This document shows, piece by piece, positions 29,599 through 35,424 of a DNA stretch of 64,000 nucleotides. Origin of the DNA: an uncultured Mailhella sp. (lineage in GTDB: Bacteria > Desulfobacterota > Desulfovibrionia > Desulfovibrionales > Desulfovibrionaceae); NCBI RefSeq assembly GCF_963931295.1, contig NZ_OZ007001.1, forward strand, positions 1,987,137 to 2,051,136, given 5' to 3'. Below the pieces are notes generated by a model that did not search any database, was not told where the DNA came from, and saw nothing but the letters and a program-made list of their open reading frames with translations. The position numbers and the translations under genes are program-made. Numbering within the stretch: the first letter of the stretch is position 1; every line of letters starts with the position of its first letter.

Positions 29599-29619
29599 TT
29601 GCGGCTGAACGGTAAATGA

Positions 29620-29659
29620 ACGTCCCGGCGGCGCTTGTGCTTCCGGGACGTTTTTTTTC
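29620..29659 (+). terminator. Rho-independent terminator after copA
   Basis: ACGTCCCGG at 29620-29628 pairs with CCGGGACGT at 29643-29651, and eight T residues follow. It lies about 20 bases past the copA stop codon. Confidence 0.9.
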
Positions 29660-29825
29660 GGCTTCTGTCAGTAGCCAAGGTGCCGGGACATGGTGCCGGA
29701 CGGGCTGAACATGACCGGTCATGCTGAGGGCGAATGCCTATGGCAGGGGAGCATAGGCTCTGTCCCGGGCCCGAGGCGGTGCCTGAAGGCCGAAGCGTCA
29801 AAGGCTGCTGGAAAAGCCGGGACCG

Positions 29826-30578
29826 CTATTCGTGCAGGGCAAGGGCGTGCAGTTTTTCAAGATCGAGAATAATAAGTTCTGTTTTTGTAAAACATTGTAA
29901 AATAGATTTTTCCTTGAGCTGTGTTATGATGTTTGACATGGTAACCTTATGCATGTTGAGCAGCAATGCAAGTTCTGTTTGGGTGATATACGGATGGATT
30001 GTTTTCTTTTGATGGATTTTATACATTTCATATATGAATAAGCATACCCTGTTTAACGGTTTTGTATACATGTTTATGCATGACATTTTTGAATAACACA
30101 GGTCTTTTACTGCCTGAGAATAGATAAGATTTTTTATAAGCTGTGGATTGATATTTAGAAGATCTTCAAAGGTAATATTTTGTGGAAAAATGTATAACTC
30201 TGAATCTTCTAGAGCCTTGATTGGCATCGTCTTGAATTGTCCTTCTGTGATAAAGAAGGCGTCATATATGAGTGCTCCCGAGAATATGAAATGAGGTGTA
30301 AATACCTTTCCTTCTTCATTGAGCTGATTGATACATATTTTACCTTTTTTCAGATAGATGATAGGAGCAATGGCATCAACATCAGGATAAATGATATCGC
30401 CTTTTTTGAGCAGCATCATAGATGCAAGATCAAGAATATGTTCCCATATATTGCTTGTATTGCATATGACTCCCGGCATGGAGTGCAGAGGCGGACATGC
30501 AGAAGCGTATTCAGGAAATGTCCGTGCAGTATAGGCTTCTGTTGCAGACGTGTCGAAAAGCAGCTCGGATAAGAACAT
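29826..30578 (-). CDS. Crp/Fnr-family transcription regulator, AT-rich
   Basis: The 250-residue protein has a cNMP-binding-like beta barrel (GDIIYPDVDAIAPIIYLKKG) and a C-terminal winged helix of the Crp type (ITQTELALLLNMHKVTMSNI). No Fnr-type cysteine cluster for [4Fe-4S] is evident at the start; the few Cys are scattered. The effector is unknown. The start is uncertain: the ATG at 30578 has no purine-rich site upstream. Base composition is far more AT-rich than anything around it. It is placed just downstream of the DASS/flavoprotein operon on the same strand and is the likely local regulator. Similarity to HcpR of sulfate reducers is possible. Confidence 0.85.
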   Translation of the reverse strand: MFLSELLFDTSATEAYTARTFPEYASACPPLHSMPGVICNTSNIWEHILDLASMMLLKKGDIIYPDVDAIAPIIYLKKGKICINQLNEEGKVFTPHFIFSGALIYDAFFITEGQFKTMPIKALEDSELYIFPQNITFEDLLNINPQLIKNLIYSQAVKDLCYSKMSCINMYTKPLNRVCLFIYEMYKIHQKKTIHPYITQTELALLLNMHKVTMSNIITQLKEKSILQCFTKTELIILDLEKLHALALHE

Positions 30579-30601
30579 GGGGAGATTCCGTGAGCAGAAA
30601 A

Positions 30602-30641
30602 GTTTGAAACCGACCTTTCCTGAATGAACAGAAAAGGCCGG
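30602..30641 (-). terminator. Terminator-like hairpin after the transporter gene
   Basis: CCGACCTTTCCTG (30610-30622) pairs with CAGAAAAGGCCGG (30629-30641) over 13 positions with two G-U pairs and a six-base loop, and the minus-strand transcript then reads UUUCAAACUUUUC. It lies between the transporter gene and the Crp/Fnr gene, so the regulator may be expressed by partial read-through or from its own promoter. Confidence 0.65.
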
Positions 30642-30665
30642 AAAAATGCTGTATATGTCAGAAAG

Positions 30666-32054
30666 TTACATGAGTCCGAGGGGCCTGGCAATGATCAGCA
30701 TAATGAGAGGCATGATGATGACCCAGGCTATGGAAATGAAAATACCGGGTTTGAACATGTCTCCCATTTTATAGTAGCCGGAGTTGTAGGAAACCAGGGA
30801 AACGGGATCGAGAGGAAGCAGCAGGGCTGCCGATACGCTGAAGGCCATGGGCATGGCCAGAATGGCGGCATTGGCGCCCAGAGATCCGGCAAGCGCCACG
30901 AGCGCGGGAAGCATGACGGCCACAATGGCGGTGTTCACGGGAATGATGAGATGCACAAGCACGGTGAAGGCGGAGATGACGGCAATCATCATCCACAGCG
31001 GCATGTCGGCAATGCCGCCCAGGCAGTTCGCTGCTATCCAGGATGCGGCTCCCTGATCCCAGAGCAGCACGCCGAGAGAATTGGCGGAACCGACGACCAT
31101 AAGAACTTCCCATCCTATTTTATGGCCGTCGCTGGCCCAGTCGATGAGCCCCACGCCGGGAATCAGGAACAGCGTTGCGCCGAGCACGCAGACGACGGGA
31201 AGCGGAATGTTGTGAACTTTGTCCGTCATCCACAGGATCATATTAATGAGGAGAATAAGGAGAAATTTCCATTCCTTGGCCTGAAGTTTGCCAAGCTCCT
31301 CATATTCCTGCTTCATGTCTTCCATGCCTATCAGGCTGTTCATTTCCGGCGGGTATACCTTGATGGTGAAAAACCAGGCGATAGGCGTGAGAATAAGAAC
31401 CATGGGCATGCCAACACAGGCCCATTCCAGAAAGGAAATGTTGACGCCGGCGGTATCCTTGAGCAGGCCTATGGTCATGGCGTTCATGGAAGAGCCAGCG
31501 GGAGTGCCGACGCCGCCGATGAGGCAGGCAAAAGGCAGACCTATCATCATGGCGCGTCCGAAGGAGCTTTTGTGCTGTACGCAGTCGTTGTTCTGGAGAA
31601 TGACGAGCGCAACGGGAAGAAGCATGGCCATGACGGGAATATCGGCGAGAATGGAGGAGAGAAGGCCGCCCGCCATCATGAGATAGAGCAGAAGCTTTTC
31701 CGGTTTTCCATGAGATTTCACGCTTGCCCACAGGACGATGCGGCGACTGAAGCCCGAGTTCTGAAAGGCGATGGACACGACGAACATCGCAAAGACGAAG
31801 AACACCGTGGGCGTTGCAAAATTGGCCATCATCTTCGGCAGGGGAGCAATATGGAAGACGGCCGGAAGCACCGTGAAAAGAATGGCGGCAAAGGCGATGG
31901 GAAGAACGCCCGTTACCCAGAAGAGCACCGCGGCAAGCATGAAAATGATGGCGGAATGACCGTGGGGAGTGAGCCCTTCAGGGGTGGGGAGCAGATACAG
32001 GATGAAGGAGAGAAGAACAATACCGAGGAAGCTGAGAAGTTTTTTCTGCATCAT
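30666..32054 (-). CDS. DASS-family (SLC13-like) anion transporter with unusual motifs
   Basis: The 462-residue protein has about 12 hydrophobic segments and matches divalent-anion:sodium symporters: GGVGTPAGSSMNAM corresponds to the GTPxN hairpin region and PVNTAIVAVMLPAL to the second SNT motif. The first SNT motif (SNTATTAMMLP in dicarboxylate carriers) reads ADIPVMAMLLP here. These motifs form the substrate and sodium sites, so the cargo may not be succinate or malate. AGGAG lies six bases before the ATG. It is the last gene of the operon that encodes the flavoprotein and the iron-sulfur carrier, and it probably brings in their substrate. Confidence 0.88.
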   Translation of the reverse strand: MMQKKLLSFLGIVLLSFILYLLPTPEGLTPHGHSAIIFMLAAVLFWVTGVLPIAFAAILFTVLPAVFHIAPLPKMMANFATPTVFFVFAMFVVSIAFQNSGFSRRIVLWASVKSHGKPEKLLLYLMMAGGLLSSILADIPVMAMLLPVALVILQNNDCVQHKSSFGRAMMIGLPFACLIGGVGTPAGSSMNAMTIGLLKDTAGVNISFLEWACVGMPMVLILTPIAWFFTIKVYPPEMNSLIGMEDMKQEYEELGKLQAKEWKFLLILLINMILWMTDKVHNIPLPVVCVLGATLFLIPGVGLIDWASDGHKIGWEVLMVVGSANSLGVLLWDQGAASWIAANCLGGIADMPLWMMIAVISAFTVLVHLIIPVNTAIVAVMLPALVALAGSLGANAAILAMPMAFSVSAALLLPLDPVSLVSYNSGYYKMGDMFKPGIFISIAWVIIMPLIMLIIARPLGLM

Positions 32055-32106
32055 TGTTCTCCTGGAGAGAAGGGGCGGAGCGAAGCCCCGCCCCTTAACG
32101 CCCCGG

Positions 32107-33825
32107 TTACTTCTTGGGGAAGGTGAAATTATCCATGTAGTAGCGGTAGGGCTGCACGGGATAGTCCTCTACGGGAACACGAACCTTGGAGAATACGGGT
32201 TCCCCGTCCTTGCCGAGGTGGGCGTACAGCCAGGCAAGCCATTCTCCGTTGTTGCGCTCGGGATAGTCTTCGCGGTAGTGACCGGCACGGGATTCCGTGC
32301 GCAGCAGGGATGCGCGGACAAACAGTTCGGAGCGCATGAGCATGGTGGTGGCTTCATAGTATTTGCAGAGATCCCGGGGATCCTTGGCCATCATGCGTCC
32401 GGCGAGGTCCTTGGCGTATTCCACACGCTTGAGGGCGTTTTTGAGGCTGGAGTCGCTTTTGATGAGGCAGACATCGGCGGGATATACGATTTCCTGGGAT
32501 TCGCGGATGATGTCCTTGGTGTCGATGCCCTTGCGTCCGATGGGGGCCATGGCGGCCTTGAGAGCTTCGTCGGCCTGCGTCATGTTCAGCGCGGAAGGCT
32601 TCTTGTCCAGTGCCTTGCGGGCCGCGTTGGCGCCGGCAATGTAACCGGTGACGGCAGTGGTGCAGAGCGCCCAGCCGCCCATGTACACACCGGGGTCGAA
32701 GCCTTTGCAGCGGCAGGCCGCAAACATGCCGGGAATGGTGGTCTCATAGTTGAGATCGGTGACGGGGCCGCCGCTGTGCCACATGATCTGCGGCATCCAG
32801 CGCGTCTTGCCGTCGAAGAACTTCATGCCGTAATCTTGCACAAGACGGTCGTAGTTTATCTTTGCCCATCCGCGAACCGGCTCCATCAGCTTGGCGTTTT
32901 CCTTGGTCATGGGCGTGGTGTCGAAGAAGATGGGAGTCCTGCCCGCTCTGGCTTCAAAGGCCATGCCGCGTGAGTTGTAGGTCGTGTCGGTGTTGGGGCC
33001 CAGCTTCTCGGAGTAGTACTTCTTCATGAAGTCTTCTCCGTCCTTGTTCACCAGGCGGGCGCCCAGCGGCAGCAGGCCGGTCTGTCCTTCCCAGGAAAAG
33101 ACGACGGGCTGTATCCAGATGTTCATGAATTCGTTGTGCGACAGTTCCGCACCCGCCTTGTACGCCAGCCATCCGCCTTCGCCGGTGGAATTGGACATGG
33201 TGATGTATGAGGGGCGCCATCCGCCGCCGCCCGTGGCGAGCACCACGGAGGGCGCTTCAAACACGAATGTTTCGCCACTCTGGGTGTGGAAACCGGCGGC
33301 ACCGGCCACTTCGCCGGAGTCGTCTTTGAAAATGTCGGTGACGGCCACGCGACAGATGCGACGTACGCCGAGGCGATTGGCCTCGCGCACAAGCGCGTCG
33401 CGCATGCTGGGACCACCCGTGCCGTAGGGACGGATGAGCAGCATTTTCATGTGCTTGAGGTTGCGCTGGGGGATGGCGAGCAGCTTGCCGTTTTCATCTC
33501 GGGCGAACTTGACGCCCAGACGTTCGTAGTGCTGGAATCTCTCGTAGGACTGTTCGAGAATGTGTTTGACCAGCGGCTGATCGCAAAGACCGTCGTAGTA
33601 ATAGACGACATCGTCCAGAGCCGCTTCAACGGTGGTGTCCTGCACGCACTGGAAGTCGCCGCCGGAAGCCGTGCCGAGTCCGCCCCAGTCCGCGGGGCCC
33701 TTGTCGACGATAACTACGTTTTCCACATGCTCACGGGCGCTGATGGCCGCCCAGAGACCGGAAAAGCCTCCGCCGATGATGAGAACGTCTGCCTTGATAT
33801 GATGATCTATGTTCGTCTTTTTCAT
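32107..33825 (-). CDS. AprA/FrdA-superfamily flavoprotein, substrate unknown
   Basis: The 572-residue protein begins with a dinucleotide motif, DVLIIGGGFSGLWAA, and VVIVDKG for FAD, has a middle capping region, and ends with a helical domain like that of adenylylsulfate reductase alpha or fumarate reductase (TMLMRSELFVRASLLRTESR, with GHYREDYP after it). No Tat signal is visible, so it is cytoplasmic. In place of the CRGEGG catalytic-arginine segment of Sdh/FrdA it has LLPLGARLVNKDGEDF, and the HxMGG motif is replaced by WHSGGPVTD. I infer an organic anion reductase or dehydrogenase that is not a fumarate reductase. AAGGAG precedes the ATG; the partner carrier ends two bases upstream. Confidence 0.85.
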   Translation of the reverse strand: MKKTNIDHHIKADVLIIGGGFSGLWAAISAREHVENVVIVDKGPADWGGLGTASGGDFQCVQDTTVEAALDDVVYYYDGLCDQPLVKHILEQSYERFQHYERLGVKFARDENGKLLAIPQRNLKHMKMLLIRPYGTGGPSMRDALVREANRLGVRRICRVAVTDIFKDDSGEVAGAAGFHTQSGETFVFEAPSVVLATGGGGWRPSYITMSNSTGEGGWLAYKAGAELSHNEFMNIWIQPVVFSWEGQTGLLPLGARLVNKDGEDFMKKYYSEKLGPNTDTTYNSRGMAFEARAGRTPIFFDTTPMTKENAKLMEPVRGWAKINYDRLVQDYGMKFFDGKTRWMPQIMWHSGGPVTDLNYETTIPGMFAACRCKGFDPGVYMGGWALCTTAVTGYIAGANAARKALDKKPSALNMTQADEALKAAMAPIGRKGIDTKDIIRESQEIVYPADVCLIKSDSSLKNALKRVEYAKDLAGRMMAKDPRDLCKYYEATTMLMRSELFVRASLLRTESRAGHYREDYPERNNGEWLAWLYAHLGKDGEPVFSKVRVPVEDYPVQPYRYYMDNFTFPKK

Positions 33826-33827
33826 CT

Positions 33828-35000
33828 TTATACTCCTTCGCGTTCAAATTCGATGGTACGGGGCAGCCGTTCCTTGAAGGGGTCGATGAGAATGGCACCG
33901 ACAGGACAGGCAATTTCGCAGAAGTAGCAGGTCATGCAGTCGTTTTTATAGGCGGCTTCGGCCTTGGCGCCGCAGGTGACGCAGCGATTGGCTTCGAGAA
34001 TCATGGTCTCATAGTTGAAAATACCGTCTTCGGGGGCTTCGTTGCGGGGGGTAGCCGGCAGGTTGCCGATAGGCAGTTCCTGAGAGTACTGGAACATTTT
34101 TTCCGTCGGCATGACGGCCACGGGTCGCTTTCCGGTCGGGCGGGATTCGAGCATGTCCCAGCCGTCCACAAAGCGGTTGGCGGAGAAGGCGGCTTCGCGC
34201 GCGTCGGCGATTTCATGAGCGGGATCATGGGAGGCTCCGCGCACGGGGCCGGCGGCGAATACGCCGTTGGTTCTGGAGATGAGCGTGGCGGGATCAACAT
34301 CGATTTTTCCGTCGATGATGTCTGCAACGGAAGCAAACTGCTCGGCGGTGTTCCTGCCGGTGGCGATGATCACGGCCTTTGTGTGATTCTTGAGCAGGCC
34401 GCGTACGGTCACGGCTTCGTTGTCGCCTACGGGCGTGCCGGTCTTGAAGGTGATGCCGCAGCGTTCAAACCAGGCGATCTGGGAGTCGATAAGCTCGGCA
34501 TTGAGGCTATTGCGGAACTGTCCGCCCGGCTTTTCATCCTTTTCATAGACGACGACGGAGTATCCGCGCCGACGCATGAAGTAGGCGGCGGCAATACCGG
34601 CTGCCCCGGAACCGATGACGGCGATGGTGCCTGCACGGCTGATGTCGGGCAGTACGGGATCATGGTCGAGAATCCAGCGGCCGAGATAATCTTCGATGGC
34701 CGGAATATTGACGGGGGCGTCGATTTTTTTCCGTGTGCAGGTTTTTTCGCAGAAGTGCGGACACACGCGGCAGGTGAACAGGGGGAAGGGATTATACTGC
34801 AGCAGTTCATCGGCCGCGTCGGCATGGCGCCCCTGCTGAAGCAGATGCATGTAGCTGCGCACATCGACCCCGGCAGGGCAGGCTGCACTGCAGGGGGAGA
34901 TTTTTTCCTGATGGGTATTCAGGCGATACACATCAAAGGAGCAGGTTTTAAAACAGGAACCGCATCCGATGCATTTTTCCTGATCGATGGAGCGTAACAT
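33828..35000 (-). CDS. Iron-sulfur/FAD electron carrier (GltD-like, two ferredoxin parts)
   Basis: The 390-residue protein has, in order: a ferredoxin-type motif CIGCGSCFKTC at residues 10-20; a GltD-like N-terminal cluster region with CSAACPAG and CRVCPHFCEKTC; an FAD-binding motif IGSGAAGIAAAYFMRRRG; and a C-terminal ferredoxin-like part with CVTCGAKAE and CMTCYFCEIACPVGAI. GltD, and the NuoF/SfrB relatives that use NAD(P)H, have a second dinucleotide domain inside the FAD domain. Here that part is too short, about 100 residues, to hold it. It probably moves electrons between a ferredoxin-like donor and the adjacent flavoprotein. AAGGAGG is a strong ribosome binding site. First gene of the operon. 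Confidence 0.85.
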   Translation of the reverse strand: MLRSIDQEKCIGCGSCFKTCSFDVYRLNTHQEKISPCSAACPAGVDVRSYMHLLQQGRHADAADELLQYNPFPLFTCRVCPHFCEKTCTRKKIDAPVNIPAIEDYLGRWILDHDPVLPDISRAGTIAVIGSGAAGIAAAYFMRRRGYSVVVYEKDEKPGGQFRNSLNAELIDSQIAWFERCGITFKTGTPVGDNEAVTVRGLLKNHTKAVIIATGRNTAEQFASVADIIDGKIDVDPATLISRTNGVFAAGPVRGASHDPAHEIADAREAAFSANRFVDGWDMLESRPTGKRPVAVMPTEKMFQYSQELPIGNLPATPRNEAPEDGIFNYETMILEANRCVTCGAKAEAAYKNDCMTCYFCEIACPVGAILIDPFKERLPRTIEFEREGV

Positions 35001-35424
35001 AAGACCTCCTTATAAAGGTGAAGGCAGCCCATAGCGGCTGATGCATTGGGGTTGTGAATAAAGTAACCCAAAGAAAAAAATACCTGGGTAGTCTCAGCTA
35101 ATTTTTTGCTTTATTTTTTCTTTGCTGGTGAAGTTTTTCATTCCGGCGACGTGTTTTGAGAGAATAGTTTTTATAATTATTTGTTTCTATTATAAAAATA
35201 TAAAAATGGAGCAATGAATCCGCATCAAAAGAGTGGCGAAAACAGAGAGAGGGCTGGTTTGAATTGATAAAATTTTCTTTTTTGATGGATGGCTGAAGTG
35301 CCTCGGGAAGAGCTCTCAATATTTTGATGACAAAAAAGATGAGTCAGGAGAAAAATTGTCGGTTGTTTTTGGGAAAAGTCGTTCGGTTTTTAGAGTCTTG
35401 TGAATATTGTTATTAGCATTGACC
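35001..35424. other. AT-rich regulatory gap upstream of the redox operon
   Basis: About 420 bases of very AT-rich DNA separate the redox operon from the lon terminator. A short frame at 35098-35319 has Lys/Asn-rich low-complexity coding and no ribosome binding site. The region should carry the operon promoter and its operator. Confidence 0.55.
35049..35069. promoter_or_regulatory. Imperfect palindrome, possible Crp/Fnr-family operator
   Basis: GGGTT and AACCC flank an 11-base core, and on the plus strand the sequence contains TTGTGA followed after six bases by TAACCC. This is one good half of the TTGTGA-N6-TCACAA site described for HcpR in sulfate reducers. It lies about 50-70 bases before the operon start codon. 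A target of the Crp/Fnr gene at 29826-30578 is an inference. Confidence 0.35.

Follow-up and report, generated by a model that had tools for sequence, protein, structure and literature searches.

Gene content and setting of the locus

We analyzed a window of 64,000 nucleotides from the 3.17 Mb genome of an uncultured Mailhella species (Desulfovibrionaceae). Its minus strand carries an operon in the order electron-transfer partner, flavoprotein, divalent-anion-type (DASS) importer and Crp/Fnr-type regulator (Table 1). The flavoprotein, the second gene, is a single open reading frame that starts with ATG; the plus strand of the same interval is interrupted by stop codons. An FrdB/SdhB-type partner and a membrane anchor are absent from the operon.

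Table 1. Features of the flavoprotein cassette and its surroundings (positions within the window)
Feature	Position	Strand	Evidence
Flavoprotein, FrdA/AprA superfamily, 572 aa, without any canonical dicarboxylate-site residue	32107..33825	minus	ORF, domain search, alignments
Electron-transfer partner, 390 aa	33828..35000	minus	Pfam/NCBIfam, PDB sequence and fold matches, alignment with paralogue partners, AF2
DASS-type anion importer, SNT/SNT changed to ADI/VNT	30666..32054	minus	TIGR00785, PF00939, VcINDY alignment
Crp/Fnr-type transcriptional regulator, 250 aa, G+C 0.37	29826..30578	minus	HTH_Crp_2, sub-threshold cNMP_binding match
Putative cassette promoter region, upstream of the partner gene	35001..35130	minus	DNA alignment of window, L009 and L012
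Limits of accessory insertion, between P-type ATPase gene and lon	29606..35422		blastn of orthologous loci, replacement sequences, G+C

The operon lies in an accessory insertion with a G+C content of 0.535, compared with 0.623 for the window. The whole insertion is absent from another genome of the same species (G410), where an aldo/keto reductase gene is found instead (L107 4487-5571), and in G396 just 92 bp separate the ATPase gene from lon (L108 11177-11268). The site is a variable spot, holding the cassette, the aldo/keto reductase gene or nearly nothing in three genomes. The four-gene cassette occupies the same site in the window genome and in G409 (locus L009) and a different site in G408 (locus L012). 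No attachment-site repeats or tRNA genes were found at the insertion edges. The four genes appear to move as a unit, which supports a shared function. Of note, the DASS gene, intact in the window and in L012, is split into three reading frames in the otherwise intact cassette of the Mailhella MAG at L009 (9773-11155), which may reflect a pseudogene or an assembly error.

L009 and L012 carry the same regulator gene beside their cassettes. The block AAAAAATTAGC..GACTAC..GGTTACTTTATTCAC, which precedes the partner gene, is conserved in the three genomes despite the two different cassette sites. The regulator encoded in the cassette may bind there, an operator function that we infer. The region includes the Shine-Dalgarno sequence AGGAGGTCTT; a promoter and terminator scan returned no more matches than in shuffled sequences. 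A half-site within the non-coding block, TTATTCACAA, resembles Crp/Fnr operators.

Fold and family assignment of the flavoprotein

An earlier note on this DNA, made from the letters alone, had recognized an FAD motif and a C-terminal helical domain of the AprA/FrdA family. Pfam searches confirmed both domains (FAD_binding_2, 1.4e-34; Succ_DH_flav_C, 5.8e-13). Structure prediction gave an AF2 model with a pLDDT of 89.5 and a TM score of 0.84 to E. coli FrdA in Foldseek, with AprA and PAPS reductase among the nearest folds. Pfam, AF2 and Foldseek thus concur that the predicted fold is that of FrdA/SdhA/AprA, and the SDH profile spans the full length of the protein. Inspection of the N termini revealed no signal peptide in either the flavoprotein or its partner, so both are expected to be cytoplasmic.

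The flavoprotein scored far under all curated NCBIfam cut-offs that we compared. The top matches were TfrA (PRK06263; 179 bits, cut-off 718) and PRK08275 (178 bits, cut-off 587); lower scores were obtained with TIGR01812 (151 bits, cut-off 567), the nadB model (133 bits, cut-off 452.75, with the canonical Arg/His set absent), TIGR01176 (111 bits, cut-off 933) and the aprA model TIGR02061 (57.0 bits, cut-off 641.75).

Replacement of the canonical active-site residues

We mapped the flavoprotein pocket by sequence profiles, with the canonical positions given in E. coli FrdA numbering (R248, R287, H355, R390 and H232). To set the columns, we aligned the protein by profile with M. smegmatis SDH2 and compared it by hhalign and MAFFT with SDH2 and the NadB of the same genome. 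NadB served as a control and retained R, R, H, R and H across the five columns, which indicates that the alignment is sound and that the method is able to find these residues. All five differ in the flavoprotein. R248, the Arg of CRGEGG, aligns with L252 (HMM) or a gap (MAFFT), R287 of the 'PRD' motif with T281, H355 with M348 (H350 lies two residues further along), R390 with Y381, and H232 with W237/I238. At the sequence-profile level, no other Arg and His were found in the same positions.

The three motifs quoted in the earlier note are present in the minus-strand frame: LLPLGARLVN at residues 251-260, WHSGGPVTD at 349-357 and CRCKGFDPG at 371-379. The note had taken the CRGEGG and HxMGG residues as the proton-transfer and substrate-binding set. 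Their loss holds; the part that does not is the CRGEGG Arg (R248) as general acid, a role that belongs to R287, which the note does not name and which is lost as well.

To place these changes in the family we used an alignment of 52 rows sharing at least 41% identity, one of which duplicates the window gene. W47, R121, W237, Q248 and Y381 are invariant across the 52 rows. R257 is almost as constant, and H350 is a feature of the window's clade that the paralogues do not conserve. The QTGLLP-type and GVYxGG segments are also conserved over all rows; these motifs are therefore not due to chance. The invariance of W237, Q248, Y381 and R121 in the alignment indicates an active site that is retained but different, and R121, R257 and H350 could sit within the substrate pocket. 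The note had also found CRCKGFDPG odd and asked whether it is invariant. It is so in part: C371 is Cys in 5/5 distinct orthologues and position 374 is K or R in all, while C373 is found in 4/5 and is Thr in the Desulfatiglandales sequence (L011). Paralogues have G-(R/T/L)-(A/S)-(mostly R) over the CRCK positions, with Gly in place of C371 in 46/46 rows and Gly, Ala or Ser at the two Cys positions. The idea of two noteworthy cysteines near the flavin is weakened by this variation, and we rejected a conserved redox dithiol (CxC) as a general feature. On the alignment, the striking family-wide feature is instead found at AAGE/AAGD, whose acidic residue is absent in every row.

Family distribution and genomic context

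Orthologues of the flavoprotein (64-94% identity) form one supported clade and come from two further Mailhella genomes, another genus of Desulfovibrionaceae and one Desulfatiglandales MAG. Paralogues (42-49% identity) occur in several copies per genome, including three more in the window genome. By sequence comparison, the flavoprotein is a member of a multi-copy Desulfovibrionaceae family accompanied by an Fe-S partner and usually by a DASS or TRAP importer. Such an importer adjoins the flavoprotein gene in 19 of the 27 loci with enough flank. The importer type alternates even among orthologues (DASS in Mailhella, TRAP in Desulfatiglandales). Locus L010 has no importer beside its enzyme and partner genes, and the same is true of most members of the clade with a minimal ferredoxin. 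Plasmid records contained no close relatives, only PRK08275-type proteins with ~26% identity. We found no paper on this family or cassette in the open-access literature, although one may still exist.

Some cassettes have further neighbors. A second pair, consisting of a distant flavoprotein (22-26%) and a long partner (34-35%), recurs beside cassettes (L012 11232-16607, L015 10553-13996 and L092-L098) and is frequently accompanied by a LysR regulator or a TRAP/DASS importer. A UGSC-family protein and a further unnamed gene (L011 1452-3134) lie beside the Desulfatiglandales TRAP-partner-flavoprotein cassette.

A genome-wide profile search of the window genome detected DsrA above its cut-off and no AprA, FrdA or SdhA above theirs; the best TIGR01812 match was NadB, encoded next to NadA. 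The genome has ~17 flavoproteins of the AprA/FrdA superfamily without a canonical AprA, FrdA or SdhA among them, and one of these genes (C1:1973057-1974340) contains an in-frame TGA. A considerable share of the redox repertoire of this gut sulfite reducer thus consists of flavoproteins of unassigned substrate. One protein in this AprA-lacking genome, L008 (G000:C1:2810668-2812284), is a close relative of the Methanothermococcus PAPS reductase alpha subunit (phmmer 9e-67). As a stand-in for the missing AprA, the cassette flavoprotein is a weak candidate, given its aprA score far under the cut-off and the much closer relationship of L008 to PAPS reductase.

An electron-transfer partner of variable architecture

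The partner consists of two ferredoxin halves (C10, C13, C16, C20 and C355, C358, C361, C365) around a GltD/NfnA-like module. The module comprises Fer4_20 and an FAD-type Rossmann fold with the FAD GxGxxG motif; alignment with the 546-residue partners of paralogues places the deletion of an NAD(P)H domain here. The best PDB sequence and fold matches were NfnABC, GltD and DPD. The AF2 model is confident in the core (residues 110-280) and not in the remainder.

Where a family locus has enough flank, one of three partner types is almost always encoded upstream of the flavoprotein. One sister clade has a plain two-cluster ferredoxin of ~75 aa. Most other clades have a partner of 540-550 aa, in which the same ferredoxin halves enclose a GltD/NfnA-like module with Fer4_20, FAD and NAD(P)H domains. 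Partners of the third type, of 381-396 aa, have no NAD(P)H domain and occur in two separate places, the window's clade and L094/L046. The domain is present in the partners at L013, L014, L083 and L090 and absent in the window's clade and L094. Short partners are also without the Asp of the FAD 'GD' motif, and their flavin may therefore be vestigial. NAD(P)H probably drives those flavoproteins that are paired with the long partner. Deletion of the NAD(P)H domain may mark a donor switch in which ferredoxin or another protein replaced NAD(P)H. The series would then display evolutionary changes of electron donor through domain insertion and deletion.

An importer without the succinate-site motifs

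The importer matched PF00939 (1.4e-50) and scored 190.8 bits against TIGR00785, just under the cut-off of 198.6, and ~94 bits against VcINDY. In VcINDY, two SNT motifs contact carboxylates. The window importer has ADI in place of the first and VNT in place of the second, and the DASS proteins of the cassettes are without the two motifs. Importer and enzyme thus depart independently from C4-dicarboxylate recognition, which is our best argument for a different substrate. The suggestion in the earlier note that a new substrate is likely gains strength here: five canonical positions are changed and not two, the changes extend across the family, and the importer lacks the SNT motifs.

Proposed function and alternatives

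We propose, with moderate confidence, that the cassette serves the anaerobic use of one imported organic anion other than a C4-dicarboxylate, and that the flavoprotein is a cytoplasmic reductase driven by ferredoxin-type electron transfer. The DASS importer would take up an anion other than succinate or fumarate. The cytoplasmic flavoprotein would transfer hydride between a non-covalently bound FAD and this anion. Electrons would travel via the partner's Fe-S clusters, and the partner's ferredoxin halves may dock on the flavoprotein as AprB does on AprA. The window's clade has lost the NAD(P)H domain, so its donor would most likely be ferredoxin or another Fe-S or flavin protein. We favor the reductive direction, in which the enzyme would act as an electron sink like TfrA or FrdA on another compound. 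The Crp-type regulator would turn the cassette on.

The same genes could work in the opposite direction, as a dehydrogenase that oxidizes the imported anion; the partner would then hand the electrons on to ferredoxin or NAD(P), in support of sulfite reduction. GltD/Nfn-type modules can operate in both directions, and the genome, with DsrA and without a canonical AprA, needs electrons for sulfite respiration. However, partners in the window's clade have no NAD(P)H domain, so that an acceptor role for NAD(P)+ is not obvious there, and the relatives with separate Fe-S partners (FrdA, TfrA and AprA) are reductases in anaerobes. We regard oxidation as unlikely. Still less probable is sulfur chemistry of the AprA/PAPS reductase kind, in which an imported sulfonate or another sulfur compound would be the substrate and might, for instance, release sulfite via an FAD-N5 adduct. 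The nearest folds include AprA and PAPS reductase, the DsrA-encoding organism lacks AprA, sulfonate uptake fits DASS and TRAP importers, and relatives in the organism's clade live on sulfonates (PMC10507020). Against this, the AprA model matches weakly (the best stretch genome-wide reaches 37.1 bits against the cut-off of 641.75), the PAPS-type glycine-rich segment VGGHGQAG is absent from the flavoprotein, and L008 is a far better PAPS-reductase homologue in the same genome.

We also considered an ordinary fumarate/succinate-type enzyme in which the catalytic Arg and His are merely shifted, to R121, R257 and H350. The conservation of these residues (for H350, which lies two residues from the canonical His, within the window's clade) and the full-length SDH alignment fit this explanation. 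However, five positions are altered together, R390 is replaced by an invariant Tyr, H350 is not conserved in paralogues, and the adjoining importer has also lost its carboxylate motifs; we think this explanation very improbable. The flavoprotein should not be named fumarate reductase, since it failed on both the residue set and the curated cut-offs. Annotation pipelines would label such genes fumarate reductase or succinate dehydrogenase, a misleading name on present evidence.

More tentatively than the function of this one cassette, we suggest that the flavoprotein represents a new family of cytoplasmic reductases that has expanded in gut Desulfovibrionaceae. A fumarate-reductase fold would here hold an entirely different active site, with invariant Trp, Gln and Tyr in place of the Arg/His set, and every member would come with a dedicated importer and an electron-input protein that can be exchanged. 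If so, gut bacteria may respire, or dump electrons onto, many diet- or host-derived anions. The packaging of importer, enzyme, partner and regulator opens each substrate to simple induction and growth tests.

Comparison with known systems

The flavoprotein shares with FrdA/SdhA (E. coli FrdA 1kf6, M. smegmatis SDH2 6lum) the full-length predicted fold, the N-terminal FAD Rossmann motif, the ESRxxHxRxD C-terminal helical domain and a separate Fe-S partner. It differs in the absence of the five canonical residues, the covalent-FAD His and the AAGE acidic residue; in addition, its partner is unrelated to FrdB and the operon has no membrane anchor. AprA and the PAPS reductase alpha subunit (1jnr, 8a8o) have the same fold, are likewise cytoplasmic and also pair with a dicluster ferredoxin-like protein; within the flavoprotein's family, the partner of the sister clade is AprB-like. 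In contrast to these enzymes, the flavoprotein appears to lack the AAGD and glycine-rich loop segments, which differ in the alignment with the PAPS reductase alpha subunit, and is encoded in importer operons and not in a sat/qmo context.

The closest named models, TfrA (PRK06263) and PRK08275, are only ~27% identical and have different active-site segments (AAGD, no QTGLLP, no GVYxGG). Nevertheless, the PRK08275 'fumarate reductase/succinate dehydrogenase flavoprotein' of Burkholderiales has an analogous cassette layout (GntR, flavoprotein, ferredoxin, ABC importer). One example, on a Cupriavidus pinatubonensis plasmid (L103 5088-12203), encodes a GntR regulator, the PRK08275 flavoprotein, a ferredoxin, an ABC importer and a HEAT-repeat protein. 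The importer of the window shares family and fold with VcINDY and differs in both SNT motifs. The partner resembles the input module of GltD, NfnA and dihydropyrimidine dehydrogenase in its Fer4_20 and FAD Rossmann fold; unlike in these enzymes, the module splits a small ferredoxin into two halves, has no NAD(P)H domain here and, in the short forms, is without the 'GD' Asp.
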